Positions 1-6,327 of a stretch of DNA of 34,611 nt are shown here, in pieces; within the stretch, counting starts at the first letter, position 1, and the number at the start of each line of letters is the position of its first letter. Source of the stretch: Spirochaetia bacterium (lineage in GTDB: Bacteria; Spirochaetota; Spirochaetia; DAHUYW01); contig JASHNV010000086.1 in the NCBI GenBank assembly GCA_030041455.1, positions 1-34,611 on the forward strand, read 5' to 3'. The notes beneath the pieces were generated by a model. That model had not been told where the DNA came from. It made no database searches and was given only the letters and a program-made list of their open reading frames with translations. The position numbers were made by a program, and so were the translations under genes.

Positions 1-1310
1 GCGATGAAGCCGGCCCGCATGGCGCACGCGGCGACGAAGGCGTACCGCGAGAGAACGCGCCGCGACGCGCGCCCGTCGATCGCGCGGTAGGCGTCCCAAA
101 GCCCCGCCCAGGAGTCCTTCTCGACGAGCTCCGTGCAGAGGGCGTCGAGAATGTCGTCGAAGAAAGAGGGCGTGTGCCACGCTTCCGCGTAGCTCGCGAG
201 GACCCCGGCCGCGGCGCTCGGCGACTGGAGTACCTCGCTATCGAGCGCGTACCAGAGCATGCGATCTCGATCCCGGTCGCTCGCGGCGTAGCCGTATGCG
301 CGCTTGTACGCGTCGATCGCGTTCGCGAAGCTCTCGTCCGTCCGGTAGAGGTGACCGAGGTCCTCGTAGGCGGCGTACATGAGCCTGCCGCTCGCCGAGC
401 CCGCGCGGACGGCCGCGACGATGTCTTTGAACGTTCGAATGCCCGAGAGGAGGCTCCCGTCCTGGATATAGGCGCGGCAGAGGTCGTGAAGGTCCGCGCT
501 CGTGAAGAGGAGCGGATCGCGCGCCTCGATGAGGGGCTTCAGAAGCTGCAGGGCGTCGGCGTAGCGCTCGCGCGCGATGTCGCTCTTCGCCTCCATGAGC
601 GCGAGCTCCCGGGGGCTGAACGCCGCTTTGTCGTCCGGATTCAGGTTGAGAAAATCGAAGGCGCGCACGTGCGCGTCCCAGGCCTCCTGGGTGGTGAAAA
701 GCTTCATGAAGAGCGCTTTCCAGCCGTCGAGCCCGAGACGGGCGGAGGAGACCGCGCGGAACAGGTCGAGCTCGGGGTCCTTCGGCTCAGAACCGTCGTC
801 GTTCTTCATGGCGGCGATCCTGGCGAGCGCTTTCAGAACGTCGGCGTCCTTGTGCTGCCAGTACAGCGATTGGAGCAGGACGCGATACACACCCCGGCCG
901 GGATAGGCCAGGTAGACCTCCCGCGCGGTCTCCTCGGCGCGCTCGTATTGGGCGCTCTTCAGGAGCCGCTCGGCGAGGAGCCCGCCGGCTTCCTGCCGCC
1001 AGGCGCCGCTCCCGCGCAGCCACTCCACGCCGAGAAGCTTGTCGGAGGCGTCGTCCCGCCCGATGTCGCGGAACACGAACGACATGTAGAAAGCGGCGTG
1101 CGGTCCGAGCCGCGTCACCTCGTCGGGCCTCACCCGGTCGAAATCGATTCCCTTGAGAAACCCGACGTCGCCGCGCCGCACGCGATCAAGGAGGCTTTCC
1201 TGGCGAACGTTCCAGACCGTGCCCGGAAAGCAACTCGACAGCGTGAGGAGCGAGAGCGCGAGGAAGCCGAACTGCCTAACGGTCGGGAATGAAAATCTGT
1301 GTGCGCGCAA
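1..1310 (-). CDS. Envelope lipoprotein with helical-repeat body (partial, runs off left edge)
   Basis: The frame stays open from about 1310 to the left edge, so the C-terminus is missing (436 codons visible). Read from a TTG at 1310, the N-terminus is a lipoprotein signal: an Arg/His-rich start, hydrophobic FGFLALSLLTL, then lipobox LSSC with the lipidated Cys at residue 27. The rest is Leu/Ala-rich and helical, with TPR-like pairs such as YERAEETAREVYLAYPG and FANAIDAYKRAYGYA. No catalytic domain lies in the visible part. A helical lipoprotein beside a LysM gene could be the front half of a soluble lytic transglycosylase-like enzyme, but that is only inference because any catalytic domain would be outside the window. 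The start overlaps the LysM gene by 35 bases and lacks a clear ribosome-binding site, so translational coupling is likely. No ATG or GTG gives the signal peptide. Confidence 0.8.
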   Translation of the reverse strand, partial: MRAHRFSFPTVRQFGFLALSLLTLSSCFPGTVWNVRQESLLDRVRRGDVGFLKGIDFDRVRPDEVTRLGPHAAFYMSFVFRDIGRDDASDKLLGVEWLRGSGAWRQEAGGLLAERLLKSAQYERAEETAREVYLAYPGRGVYRVLLQSLYWQHKDADVLKALARIAAMKNDDGSEPKDPELDLFRAVSSARLGLDGWKALFMKLFTTQEAWDAHVRAFDFLNLNPDDKAAFSPRELALMEAKSDIARERYADALQLLKPLIEARDPLLFTSADLHDLCRAYIQDGSLLSGIRTFKDIVAAVRAGSASGRLMYAAYEDLGHLYRTDESFANAIDAYKRAYGYAASDRDRDRMLWYALDSEVLQSPSAAAGVLASYAEAWHTPSFFDDILDALCTELVEKDSWAGLWDAYRAIDGRASRRVLSRYAFVAACAMRAGFI

Positions 1311-2112
1311 ATATCAAATCCGGATTTCTGATGGAGTTCGCCTTCGCGATTTTCCCGTAGAGCCACGGGGTGCGGTAGAAGGAGATCGACAGGTCCCAGA
1401 GCGTGTCGCCCCATCGAACGTAGTAGGAGACGCCGCCCTCGCGAACCGCGGGCTTCACGGAGGCCGGGGGAGGCGCGACAGGCGGAGCCGGAAGAACGGG
1501 CGCCGCCGCGACGACAGGGGGCGTCTGCGCCTTCGGCGCATGGCCGGGGCGGAGGACGAGGAGCAGGACGATCGCGAGGAGCACGAGGGCCGCGAGAATG
1601 AGCCCCAGGATCCGCGGAAGCAGCGCGCGCGACGGCCTGCGCTCGGCGTCCGGCAGCGACGCTTCCGCCTGCGCGAGCACGCTTGCCTCCTCGGCGCTCA
1701 CGCCGTTTTCCGCCTCGAACGGCGGCGCCGTCGCGAACTGGGCGTCCCCGAAGACCTTCTCCTGCGCGAGATCGCGCATGCTCACCGAGAGGCTCTTGCG
1801 CGTGCCCGACCACCGGTCGTTCGCCTCGGCGTTGAGATTGCCCTGCGGGTCGATGCCGAGGACGAGCTCGATCTCGGCCTCGCCCTTCGGCGCTGGCTTG
1901 ATGTCCTCCACGACGAGGCTTCCGACGTACTGGGAATCGCTGAGTTTGGAATCGGAGCCCTTATAGAGGTCGATCTGCACGCTCGTTTGGCCATCCTTGA
2001 CCGTGGTGAGGATCGCCTTTTTCTTGGAGCGCGCGCCTTCGTCGAGGACCCGGTAATAGGTGCCGTTCGCTATCTTAATGCCTATCGAGGACGCGGCCAC
2101 AACTTCCCCCAA
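1276..2112 (-). CDS. Membrane protein: DnaK substrate-binding-like domain, one TM helix, C-terminal LysM
   Basis: Three parts are visible. Residues about 9-112 resemble the beta-sandwich substrate-binding domain of DnaK: ILTTVKDGQTSVQIDLYKG, VGSLVVEDIKPAPKGEAEIE and LGIDPQGNLNAEAND match DnaK's TAEDNQ-V-IHV-QGE, LG-F-L-GI-PAPRG-PQIEV and FDIDA-GIL-VSAKD. There is no ATPase domain. Residues 164-187 form one strong transmembrane helix, followed by a Pro/Ala-rich linker. Residues 228-277 are a LysM domain (YYVRWGDTLWDLSISFY) expected to bind peptidoglycan. With no signal peptide, the DnaK-like part should be cytoplasmic and LysM periplasmic. Start is uncertain: TTG at 2112, or GTG at 2100 just after GGGGGAAG (274 residues). 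The gene is divergent from the TPR gene and overlaps the lipoprotein gene. Confidence 0.88.
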   Translation of the reverse strand: MGEVVAASSIGIKIANGTYYRVLDEGARSKKKAILTTVKDGQTSVQIDLYKGSDSKLSDSQYVGSLVVEDIKPAPKGEAEIELVLGIDPQGNLNAEANDRWSGTRKSLSVSMRDLAQEKVFGDAQFATAPPFEAENGVSAEEASVLAQAEASLPDAERRPSRALLPRILGLILAALVLLAIVLLLVLRPGHAPKAQTPPVVAAAPVLPAPPVAPPPASVKPAVREGGVSYYVRWGDTLWDLSISFYRTPWLYGKIAKANSIRNPDLIFARTQIFIPDR

Positions 2113-2185: not shown

Positions 2186-3625
2186 ATGTCCCTGTTTCTC
2201 CCCGTGCTCCCCGTGGTCGTTTTGATTCTCGCGGTCGCTGCCTACTATATCGTCACAATAGTCAGGAAACGGACCGATTCCCATCAAAAAACGGGAAAAA
2301 TCCGGGGCCGGGATCGCGACTCGACCTTTCGCGAGGCGACGAGGCGCCTCGAGCAAAATCCGCGGGACTCGGACGCGCTCCTCTCCATCGGCGAGATCTC
2401 CTTCAACGAAGGCGCTTTCGACGTCGCGTTGAAAACCTACCGGTCGCTCGTCGACCTGTGCGCCACGAATCCCCATATCGACGAGTACTTCGTGACGCTC
2501 CGCTACGGCCTCTCCGCGCTGAACAGCAACCGGCCCGAGGAGGCGTACAAGAGCCTCCTCATCGCGAAGACCATGAAAGACGGGGAGTTCGAGGTCAACT
2601 ACAACCTCGGCGCGATCGAGTACCAGCACAAGAACTACGAGCGCGCGGCGCAGCTGCTGACCCTCGCGACGTCGAGGGAGCCGGAGCACCTCCTCGCCCT
2701 TCGCTTTCTCGGCCACAGCCTGTTCAAGTGCAAGCGCTGGGAGGAAGCGGCGCCGATCCTCCGCCGGGTCCTCGACCGCTCGCCCGACGACAAGGAGACC
2801 CTGTTCGCCGTCGCGCGAAGCTACCATGAGCTCGGTCAGGCGGAACAGGCTATAAAGATTTTCGTCCACCTGAGAGCCGACCCGCAGGTGGGGGCGAGCG
2901 CGGCGCTGTACGCCGGCACGATTCACCTCCAGACGCGGCAATACGACCAAGCGGTCGCCGATTTCGAAATGGGGCTCAAGCACCCCGGCGTCTCGGGAGA
3001 GGTGGAGCTCGAGCTCAAGTATCGCCTCGCCGCGACGCACATCAAACGCGAGGAGATCGGCGAAGCCATCCAGCTCCTCCAGGAGATCGCCGCCGTCTCG
3101 CCGAGCTTTCGCGATGTCGGCGAGCAGCTGAAGCACTACGGCGAGCTCAACGCCAACCAGAATCTGAAGACCTATCTCCTGTCGCCGACGGCGGAGTTCG
3201 TGCCCCTGTGCCGCAAGCTCATTGTCGGCTTCTTTCCGCAGGCGAAGGTGAAGATCGTCGACATCTCCGTTCAGAAGAGCGAGTACACCGACATTCTCGC
3301 CTCCGTCGGGACGGCCAAGTGGGAGGACGTGATTCTCTTCCGCTTCGTGCGGACGGCGGGCGTGGTCGGGGAGCTCATCCTGCGCGATCTCAACTCGAGG
3401 ATCAAGGAGCTGAAAGCCGGCAGGGGCTACTGCTTCGCCGGGGGCAGCTTCACCGAGGGGGCAAAGCAGTTCGTCGAGGCGCGCCTCATCGACCTCGTCG
3501 AGAAGGACCAGCTCATGGACCGCCTGAGCTCGCTCGACATCCGCAGCCCGTCCGAGCGCCGGGCGGACGTCTCGCGGCAACCCGCGGGCGACACCGAGGG
3601 CGGGAGCGGAGAGGCGCGCGCCTAG
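2186..3625 (+). CDS. Membrane-anchored TPR protein with degenerate Mrr-like C-terminal domain
   Basis: The 479-residue product starts with an uncleaved transmembrane helix (residues 4-26), so the body should be cytoplasmic. Residues about 45-325 hold several TPR-like helical pairs (FDVALKTYRSLVDLCATNP, YERAAQLLTLATSREPEH, WEEAAPILRRVLDRSPDD, YDQAVADFEMGLKHPG), probably a scaffold for protein contacts. Residues about 335-450 resemble the restriction-endonuclease-like fold of Mrr proteins: an Asp in YTDILA, a core strand VILFRFVRT, and the typical ending SFTEGAKQFVEARLIDLVEKDQL. The catalytic Q-x-K of active Mrr enzymes is replaced by F-R-F, so nuclease activity is unlikely. I recall similar TPR proteins in treponemes. 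Function unknown. It meets rsmG tail to tail, the two stops sharing CTAG. Confidence 0.88.
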   Translation: MSLFLPVLPVVVLILAVAAYYIVTIVRKRTDSHQKTGKIRGRDRDSTFREATRRLEQNPRDSDALLSIGEISFNEGAFDVALKTYRSLVDLCATNPHIDEYFVTLRYGLSALNSNRPEEAYKSLLIAKTMKDGEFEVNYNLGAIEYQHKNYERAAQLLTLATSREPEHLLALRFLGHSLFKCKRWEEAAPILRRVLDRSPDDKETLFAVARSYHELGQAEQAIKIFVHLRADPQVGASAALYAGTIHLQTRQYDQAVADFEMGLKHPGVSGEVELELKYRLAATHIKREEIGEAIQLLQEIAAVSPSFRDVGEQLKHYGELNANQNLKTYLLSPTAEFVPLCRKLIVGFFPQAKVKIVDISVQKSEYTDILASVGTAKWEDVILFRFVRTAGVVGELILRDLNSRIKELKAGRGYCFAGGSFTEGAKQFVEARLIDLVEKDQLMDRLSSLDIRSPSERRADVSRQPAGDTEGGSGEARA

Positions 3626-4266
3626 GCCGAAAGCGCCTCCTTCACGACGACGAGGTGTCTCTCCTCCGCGAGGAAGGGCACCGAGAGCGGCACGATCTCG
3701 ATTCGCCATCGGCGCGCGGGGAGGCTCTCGATCTCCTCGGCGATCGTCTCGGAGCGTCCCTTGTAGGCGACCATCGCGCCTCCGGGACGGGTGATTCGCG
3801 AAAGCGGCTCGATCACCTTGCCGAGTCCGCCGAGCGCCCGAAAGGTGACGACGTCGTAGCGGCCCACCTCGCGAGCGAGATCGACCTCGCGGACCTCCAC
3901 CCGCTCCGAGAGGCCGCAGAGCGCGACGGCGTTTCGAAGAAAGGCGGCCCGCGTCGAGGAGCGCTCGATGAGCGTGAAGCGGGCGTCGGGGAGCGCCATC
4001 GCGAGGGGGATTCCCGGAAAACCCGCTCCCGAGCCGACGTCGGCGACGGAAGAACGGGGGAGCCCGCGGAGCGTCTCCGCCCCGGCCAGGCTGTCGAGCA
4101 CATGGCGGACGACGAGGTCGCCGCCCGACGCGCCGACGAGGTCGACTCGGCGGTTCCAGAGCTCGATCTCCCGGAGGTAGGCGCCGAGACGGGCAACGAG
4201 CTCCGCGTCGGACCGGAGTCCGAGGAGGGCGACGCCCTCCTCAAGCAGCCCCATAGCGTCGGTCAC
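3622..4266 (-). CDS. rsmG: 16S rRNA (guanine-527-N7)-methyltransferase RsmG (GidB)
   Basis: RsmG uses S-adenosylmethionine to methylate N7 of G527 in 16S rRNA; its loss in other bacteria gives low-level streptomycin resistance. The 214-residue product is of normal family length and shows the SAM-binding motif [20 protein letters not shown] (about residues 74-93), preceded by [24 protein letters not shown], the usual RsmG N-terminal pattern, and followed by [18 protein letters not shown]. The start is GTG at 4266, overlapping the end of mnmG by 26 bases; an ATG at 4254 is a second option. The mnmG-rsmG pairing is conserved in many bacteria and suggests one transcript. The stop overlaps the TPR gene's stop on the other strand. 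Confidence 0.96.
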
Positions 4267-6100
4267 GGTCGAGGAGAACGAGCAGGACGGCGACGTCGGC
4301 CGACCGTATCCCGGAGATCCGGGAGGCCTGTCCCACCGAGAGCGGCCGAACGAGCTTGAGCTTCTCCCTCGCCTCGTTCGACAGGCCCGTGACGGCGCCG
4401 AAGTCGAAGTCCTGCGGAATGCGGACGCTCTCCATCCGCTGGAAGCGCTGGACCTGCTTCGCCTGCCGGGCGATGTACCCCTCGTAGCGGACGTCGAGCT
4501 CGGCGAAGTGGCGGATTTCCGCCGGCCAGCGCGAGAGCTCAGGCTCGATCGCGAGGAGGTCGTCGAGCGCCACCTCCTGGGTCTTGAGGATCTGCTCGAG
4601 GCTCCGGCCGACGTACCGGGCGAGCCTCTCCTCGCGCGCCGCGTCGGCCTCGGTCAGCCTTCTCGCCCTGAGGAGCTCGGCGACCTCCTCGATGCCCCGC
4701 CGCTTGCGCTCGAGCTTCTCGATGTCCTCGCGGTGCTGCAGGCCGACGTCGAAGCCCTTCTCGAGGAGCCGGACGTCCGCGGTGTCGTGGCGAAGGCACA
4801 GCCGGTACTCCGCCCGCGAGGTGAACATCCGGTAGGGCTCCTCGGTGCCGAGGGTGACGAGGTCGTCGATGAGGACTCCGGCGTACGACTCGGCGCGCGA
4901 GAGGATGAGCGGCTCCTTTCCCTGCAGGTAGCGGGCGGCGTTGATGCCGGCGACGATGCCCTGGCAGCCCGCCTCCTCGTAGCCCGACGTCCCGTTGGTT
5001 TGCCCCGCGACGAAAAGCCCTTCGATGCGCTTCGACTGCAGGCTCGCGAAGAGCTGCTGCGGGTCCATGAAATCGTACTCGACCGCGTAGCCCGGCCGCA
5101 TCATCTCCGCCTTCTCGAGGCCCGGAATGGTCTTCAGAAAGTCGAGCTGAACGTCCTCCGGGAGCGACGAGGAGATGCCGTTCAGGTACATCTCCTCGGA
5201 CTCGAGCCCCTCCGGCTCGACGAAGATCTGGTGGCTCTTCCGCCCCGGAAAGCGGACCACCTTGTCCTCGATCGAGGGGCAGTAGCGCGGCCCCCGGCCG
5301 ACGATCTTCCCCGAGTAGAGCGGCGAGCGGTGAAGGTTGTCGCCGATCACGCGGTGAGTCTCCTCGGTGGTATGGGTGATGTAGCAGGATACGTTGGGCC
5401 GCTTCACCTCGTCGTTCTTGAACGAAAACGGTATCACGATCTCGTCGCCGGGCTGTTCCTCCATCCGGCCGAAATCGACCGTCGAGCGCGCCACCCGGGG
5501 AGGGGTGCCGGTCTTCAGCCGGCCGACCGTGAATCCGAGCTCGCGAAGGCGCAGGCCGAGGCCGATCGCGGCCGGCTCGCCGAGCCTCCCGCCCGGGGCC
5601 GTCCACTCGCCGATGAAGAGCTTGCCGTCCATGAAGGTGCCGGTGGTGAGGACGACCGCGCGCGCGCTGAAGCGGCGTCGCCTCTCGGTCACCACGCCCT
5701 CGATCCTCTTCCCGCTCGAGTCGAGGAGGAAGTCGACGACGGTGTCCTGGAAAAGATGCAGGTCCTTCTGATGCTCGAGGGCATTCTTCGCGAGACGCGA
5801 ATAGAGGAACTTGTCGGCTTGGGCGCGCGGCGCCTGAACCGCGGGGCCCCTGCTTCGGTTGAGCATGCGGTACTGGATCATGCTCGCGTCGATGAGCCTG
5901 CCCATCTCGCCGCCGAGCGCGTCGATCTCCCGAACGATGTTCCCCTTCGAGAGCCCGCCGACCGCGGGGTTGCACGAAAGGCGGCCGATCGCGTCGATGC
6001 TTTGCGTGATGAGGAGGCTCCTGAAGCCGAGGCGCGGCAGCGCGAGCGCCGCCTCGATGCCCGCGTGTCCCGCGCCGACGATGATCGCGTCGAAATCCAT
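4241..6100 (-). CDS. mnmG: tRNA uridine-34 carboxymethylaminomethyl-modification enzyme MnmG (GidA)
   Basis: MnmG is the FAD-binding partner of MnmE. Together they add the (carboxymethyl)aminomethyl group at C5 of wobble uridine in certain tRNAs. From the ATG at 6100 the product is 619 residues, the usual length, beginning [19 protein letters not shown] with the dinucleotide-binding glycine motif. Other family signatures are [68 protein letters not shown] and [16 protein letters not shown]. The frame stays open a further 68 codons upstream, but that part is Arg-rich and unlike the family. An extended -10 box ends six bases before the ATG, so the mRNA may be leaderless. Its partner mnmE is about 2 kb away. 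Confidence 0.97.
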
Positions 6101-6106
6101 GGCTCT

Positions 6107-6115
6107 ATCGTAGCA
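6107..6115 (-). promoter_or_regulatory. Extended -10 element of mnmG, predicted leaderless
   Basis: Reading the minus strand, TGC then TACGAT forms an extended -10 (TGn plus hexamer), with six bases (AGAGCC) to the mnmG ATG. The -35 is poor (TGGTGA at 17 bases). No Shine-Dalgarno sequence precedes the ATG. Confidence 0.45.
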
Positions 6116-6302
6116 AAGAAGTCGGAAATTCACCAGACCGCGCGATCGGAGGGGTGGCTCTTCGATCCGCGCCGCGAAGGAGGCATCCCCGCGTGCCCGT
6201 GGATTCTCAAGCCCGACGAACCATCGAAGCGCCCCGTTGCGCCGCATTCCATCACGACCTCCCCTTCGCCCTGGATCCCCGGAACAAAGCCGGCCCTGGC
6301 TC

Positions 6303-6327
6303 AAAAAACGCCGTTCCGACGGAACGG
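6303..6327 (-). terminator. Intrinsic-terminator-like hairpin with no gene upstream of it
   Basis: On the minus strand CCGTTCC, loop GTC, GGAACGG forms a perfect 7-base stem, then CG and six T (6303-6308). No recognised minus-strand gene ends here, so it may end a small RNA transcribed from the 6330-6700 region. Confidence 0.5.

Follow-up and report, generated by a model that had tools for sequence, protein, structure and literature searches.

A membrane-tethered, ATPase-less Hsp70-type substrate-binding domain with LysM, encoded next to a lytic transglycosylase in spirochaetes

The locus and its predicted product

The window analysed here is the whole of a 34,611-nucleotide stretch from a Spirochaetia bacterium (contig JASHNV010000086.1), and near its beginning lies a gene whose product joins an Hsp70-type substrate-binding domain (SBD), one transmembrane (TM) helix and a LysM domain. 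The features that matter for our analysis are the following:

3-1310, minus strand: N-terminal portion of an Slt-type lytic transglycosylase, cut off by the contig end; it contains a lipobox-like LSSC
1279-2100, minus strand: coding sequence of the SBD–TM–LysM protein, 274 residues from the GTG at 2100; stop at 1276-1278
1780-2100, minus strand: residues 1-107, a beta substrate-binding domain of the Hsp70 type, predicted to be cytoplasmic (Pfam, AlphaFold2, fold match to the DnaK SBD)
1627-1764, minus strand: disordered linker of low AlphaFold2 confidence, predicted cytoplasmic
1555-1620, minus strand: single transmembrane helix, residues 161-182, with RRPSR...R just before it
1435-1554, minus strand: Pro/Ala-rich linker, predicted periplasmic
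1285-1425, minus strand: LysM domain (Pfam 3.2e-6, pLDDT 94-97), predicted periplasmic and predicted to bind peptidoglycan
2186-3625, plus strand: divergent TPR gene with an N-terminal TM, TPR repeats and a C-terminal Mrr_cat-like domain; candidate partner
3622-4266, minus strand: rsmG, a syntenic neighbour in many relatives
4241-6304, minus strand: mnmG, likewise a syntenic neighbour in many relatives

The open reading frame listed for the gene occupies 1276-2112 of the minus strand and would give 278 residues counted from the TTG at 2112. Homologues begin with M-(0-6 residues)-IGIK, and a GGGGGA motif stands ahead of the GTG at 2100, in GGGGGAAGTTGTG; on these two grounds the GTG is the likelier start and the product of 274 residues the likelier one.

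The HSP70 profile of Pfam matches residues 9-117 through its model positions 393-503 (E 7.9e-13, 47.9 bits at a cut-off of 20.6 bits), NCBIfam DnaK models match the same stretch, and in a phmmer search of PDB sequences isolated Hsp70 SBDs rank first (3dob, 6.8e-14). An AlphaFold2 model built with 41 relatives has pLDDT 89-97 in the SBD and 94-97 in LysM, one helix at 161-182 and low-confidence linkers. Foldseek matched the model to Hsp70 SBDs with probability 1.00, and VIA-align placed it on the DnaK SBD 4r5l with Z 17.2 and an rmsd of 1.4 Å over 107 residues; in all 50 VIA-align rows Z is at least 14.8 and the titles are nearly all Hsp70 SBDs, 6u42_5F being a ciliary chain. Both the structure prediction with a PDB-wide fold search and the HSP70 profile search, by which the initial annotation had proposed to check its N-terminal DnaK-like beta-sandwich, thus lead to the Hsp70 fold.

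The other parts of that description, namely a single TM helix, a proline-rich linker and a LysM domain (residues 230-276, E 3.2e-6, above the Pfam cut-off), are borne out by Pfam and by the AlphaFold2 model. No TPR was found in the protein by Pfam. The claimed lack of a nucleotide-binding domain (NBD) also holds: no ATPase domain was found in the window protein, its Pfam match covers the beta-SBD only, and none is hidden upstream, since the divergent gene begins at 2186, less than 90 bp from the start of the SBD gene. The helical SBD-alpha lid was not found either, as the Pfam match stops at 117 and the AlphaFold2 model has a short helix at 108-117 followed by a low-confidence linker. With the DnaK SBD-beta (4r5l, 3dob) the protein shares the beta-sandwich fold and the groove positions at about 26-30% identity; it differs from Hsp70/DnaK in lacking the NBD, the interdomain linker and the lid, in a shorter 418-420 loop, and in the fused TM and LysM. 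It is a variant of known parts, its fold is not new, and for the window member the domain match can be read directly from Pfam. A genuine DnaK is encoded once, at another place in the host genome (G000:C167).

A family in spirochaetes and its gene neighbours

The alignment took in at least 118 relatives from spirochaetes, T. pallidum TP0042 included, and a phylum-wide search found the SBD–TM–LysM architecture in many families. A scan of GTDB genome contigs with an 11-sequence alignment gave 484 relatives, of which the best 80 all come from spirochaetes; Treponema vincentii and T. denticola are two of those in the 80 that bear a species name. The suggested survey across Spirochaetia therefore shows the same order of parts recurring through the class.

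Exactly one TM is present in 41/41 members, and the side N-terminal of it is usually richer in basic residues, from which an N-in/C-out topology is predicted; the placing of the peptide-binding fold on the cytoplasmic side, as initially supposed, agrees with this prediction. The family's cytoplasmic linker varies from 10 to 512 residues and has a median of 30% acidic (D/E) and 4% basic (K/R) residues, the linker of the window member being less acidic than this median. Some of the 41 members carry a short acidic motif, ExPDF[DE][LIF], just past the beta-sandwich (for example at residues ~120-128 of L002); it is not recognisable in the window protein. In a second AlphaFold run, made on L002 in view of a possible intramolecular pseudo-substrate, the motif region had low confidence and formed no strand. 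Mimicry of the FtsZ tail by this motif was considered and dropped, as the tail of the host FtsZ, ADLGIPAVLRDK, has only a loose 'IP' in common with it.

LysM is missing in Borrelia-type members and in an f2 paralogue, and apparently also, judging by matched ranges, in members of f7 and f11. In f2 the LysM-less paralogue adjoins Slt and the LysM-bearing one is located elsewhere. Because LysM has been dropped in several lineages, the constant unit is SBD–linker–TM, usually with Slt adjoining, and LysM is a C-terminus that many but not all members have. Of the SBD-TM-LysM unit initially described, the SBD–linker–TM portion persists, together with the transglycosylase linkage, and LysM proves not to be constant.

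The Slt gene lies downstream of the SBD gene. The window holds its 436 N-terminal residues (BLASTP 5e-16 to the Slt of locus L054), and relatives carry the SLT domain at their C-terminus (E 1e-24 to 1e-33). Another contig of the host begins with a 5'-open frame, G000:C104:1-1065, that contains an SLT domain and fits the family HMM at 3e-124; it is very probably, by sequence, the missing catalytic half. The transglycosylase gene is apparently split by an assembly contig break between window positions 3-1310 and G000:C104:1-1065.

Among the best 80 of the 484 loci, a set of nearest relatives whose members are not mutually independent, Slt is present at 72/80, and at all 34 of the 34 loci with 6 kb on both sides. 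These full-flank loci also carry the divergent TPR gene (27/34), FtsK (21/34) and UppP (12/34). Basic residues follow the N-terminal TM of the TPR protein, which probably places its repeats in the same compartment as the SBD. Its Mrr_cat-like (restriction-endonuclease) domain is above the Pfam cut-off in relatives, and its gene occurs in most flagellated spirochaetes tested, even where it is not adjacent, as at G056:C1:994131-995456. Other arrangements were also seen: in L066 and L076 (f2) a 1600-aa Ig-repeat protein and not Slt follows the LysM-bearing paralogue, and in L075 (f9) ftsK comes directly after the SBD–TM–LysM gene, Slt and TPR relatives not being found in the L075 genome. Of the roles initially suggested, recruiting or sensing may apply, and the surrounding genes point to a lytic transglycosylase as what would be recruited or regulated.

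Members in Treponema and Borrelia, and the flagellar connection

The member in the genome that we take as T. pallidum (G056; L034:8512-9441) corresponds to TP0042 by gene order. Its sequence, the order of its parts and its place ahead of an SLT gene and mnmG make it a family member; it differs in its diverged SBD. TPASS_0042 is catalogued as LysM only (PMC5951579), and Pfam likewise finds LysM and not HSP70 in TP0042, so the expectation that databases may label such a protein only by LysM comes true in this case. A published interactome link of TP0046-TP0048 to FliS (PMC2386257) was left unused, these genes being other than TP0042.

Two Borrelia-like genomes share the order TPR | SBD-like–acidic linker–TM > Slt > UppP > FtsK, and LysM-less members whose SBD is below Pfam detection lie directly upstream of Slt at L166:6823-7959, L167:6981-7985 and L169:5757-6350. 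A published BB0259 primer maps to the Borrelia-like Slt with two mismatches. By this match, and by the gene content on which the assignment to Borrelia is based, the Slt of the cluster is identified as BB0259 (LTaseBb/MltS). The knock-out primer KO-F for BB0259 had no match in L167, so the name bb0260 for the Borrelia member rests on position only. This putative bb0260 has an SBD-like N-terminus, an acidic linker and a TM, adjoins LTaseBb/MltS and lies opposite a TPR gene; it differs from the window protein in having no LysM and an SBD below Pfam detection. The Borrelia-like cluster also encodes an Hsp70 of 485-498 aa (L166:11385-12839, L167:11431-12924) that ends after the beta-SBD (about 364-477 of 485), with the NBD present and apparently no lid.

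LTaseBb (BB0259) is a flagellar-specific lytic transglycosylase that interacts with FlgJ, and without its activity hooks remain under the peptidoglycan (PMC8517470). The enzyme was later renamed MltS, a name that reflects its anchorage in the inner membrane and its part in peptidoglycan turnover (PMC12279116). It is the counterpart of the Slt beside the window gene, an enzyme and not the SBD protein, and the partner described for it to date is FlgJ (PMC8517470).

FliF was missing from 12/12 f12 genomes tested, whereas every other genome tested has it, and the SBD family is absent from the same 12/12 aflagellate f12 genomes (in G226 according to the phylum-wide search); since f12 is one family, this co-absence counts as one evolutionary event. 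TPR and Slt relatives are absent from the two f12 genomes searched. The SBD family was also not found in flagellated genomes of f10, f14 and f16 or in Leptospira-like ones.

A peptide groove kept, ATPase coupling lost, and the proposed role

SBDs of Hsp70 proteins are normally under ATPase control. Conservation was computed over 98 non-redundant members in DnaK numbering. The ten positions that form the groove in the DnaK-peptide structure have a mean entropy of 0.62 bits against 1.72 for the whole domain, a value not reached by any of 20,000 randomly drawn sets of columns. When only hydrophobic columns are compared, the seven hydrophobic groove positions still stand at 0.64 versus 1.11 bits (p ~0.02). 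Gln433 is invariant (98/98), and small or hydrophobic residues are retained at 401, 404, 426, 436 and 438; positions 402 and 405 are invariantly Lys/Arg and Asp/Asn, respectively, both unlike DnaK.

The elements that couple the domain to the NBD are, by contrast, missing or variable. In an alignment of 41 members to the host's own DnaK, the interdomain linker 389-396 (389-VLLLDVTP in DnaK) is missing in 41/41, and so are two residues of the 418-420 loop, a part of the NBD-docking loop. At position 414 most members have Glu where E. coli DnaK has Lys, and residue 481 varies; in DnaK, K414 and D481 contact the NBD and their mutation breaks allostery (PMC4595643). This pattern suggests that selection acts on the groove and not on ATPase coupling, and the low groove entropy may come partly from a folding constraint. 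Lidless DnaK still binds peptide, with a KD about 5.7-fold weaker than wild type (PMC7968864), which would make a lidless, NBD-less SBD chemically reasonable as a fast, ATP-free peptide receptor. The SBDs of Borrelia-type members and of T. pallidum have diverged, so that peptide binding should not be assumed for every member. For a chaperone role, as the initially proposed 'stabilise envelope proteins' would imply, only the fold speaks; the protein has lost the linker, the lid and a portion of the loop that docks the NBD.

Our preferred reading, which we hold tentatively and at somewhat less than an even chance, is an ATP-independent scaffold spanning the envelope, whose cytoplasmic clamp grips a partner and which places the transglycosylase. 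It starts from the domains, the predicted fold, the conservation, the gene linkage and the identity of the Borrelia enzyme, and to these we infer the topology, the binding of peptide and of peptidoglycan, the link to the enzyme and the identity of the partner. The protein would be a bitopic inner-membrane scaffold organised like FimV/HubP. Its N-terminal beta-SBD, freed from ATP control, would be cytoplasmic, carried by a tether that is flexible and as a rule acidic, and would reversibly bind a hydrophobic stretch, in extended form, of a partner in the cytoplasm, possibly the divergent TPR protein or else a flagellar or division protein, and the C-terminal LysM would grip peptidoglycan. Across the membrane the scaffold may position or license the neighbouring Slt-type transglycosylase of the LTaseBb/MltS family, which would open and turn over peptidoglycan at the sites of wall growth and of emerging periplasmic flagella.

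Several other readings have to be weighed against this scaffold. The beta-SBD could be a reused fold that serves as a rigid protein-protein module, docking for instance the TPR protein by a surface face, with the groove as a relic. The loss of lid, linker and NBD would fit such reuse, as would the un-DnaK-like residues 402 and 405 and the strong divergence of the Borrelia, T. pallidum and f2-paralogue members, in which the groove motif TTV..Q..V is eroded; against it, the groove positions are better kept than other hydrophobic columns, Gln433 is fixed, and almost every member has small or hydrophobic residues at the arch positions. We regard this reading as unlikely. A kindred idea is a polar landmark, a general wall-anchored hub for chemotaxis, flagellar and division clients in place of a partner dedicated to the transglycosylase. 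FimV/HubP has a periplasmic LysM, one TM, an acidic cytoplasmic spacer of variable length and a distal client-binding domain (PMC12918733), and the window family mirrors this list with LysM (predicted periplasmic) and one TM, an acidic spacer of 10-512 aa and a cytoplasmic client domain. The order and orientation are opposite (N-in, LysM C-terminal) and the SBD replaces the FimV TPR domain; the likeness lies in the list of parts. The adjoining TPR gene, an MCP gene that precedes the T. pallidum member and the failure to find the FimV_Cterm family (TIGR03504) in the host genome would agree with a landmark; the tight linkage, on the other hand, is to Slt and not to diverse clients, and some lineages do without LysM, which leaves such a hub rather improbable.

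A membrane-proximal holdase, catching unfolded or emerging segments and passing them to DnaK or Sec, could draw on the peptide binding of lidless DnaK (PMC7968864), but linkage to Sec, DnaJ or GrpE was not seen at the SBD locus, the NBD-docking loop is shortened and it is hard to see what a holdase would gain from being tethered by LysM; we consider it very improbable. The least credible of all, with a practically negligible chance and nothing seen in its favour, is a truncated, decaying dnaK or an assembly artefact: about 118 homologues show the same order of parts and consistent conservation, and relatives of the same architecture across the class, together with an intact DnaK elsewhere in the host, rule out a broken dnaK.

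In the open-licence papers searched we found no description of an NBD-less SBD–TM–LysM family or of its linkage to a flagellar transglycosylase. A free-standing conserved SBD in many spirochaetes would show the Hsp70 clamp as a plain receptor, with diverged members in the groups of the syphilis and Lyme agents, and the family offers a named, deletable candidate for placing or restraining the flagellar transglycosylase. We may even suggest, as a doubtful extension, that the clamp works as an ATP-free transmembrane receptor, by which a peptide signal inside, for example from a nascent flagellar motor or the divisome, would switch on or place the transglycosylase outside. If true, this would be a new inside-to-outside control of peptidoglycan cutting and would explain how the holes for periplasmic flagella are made.
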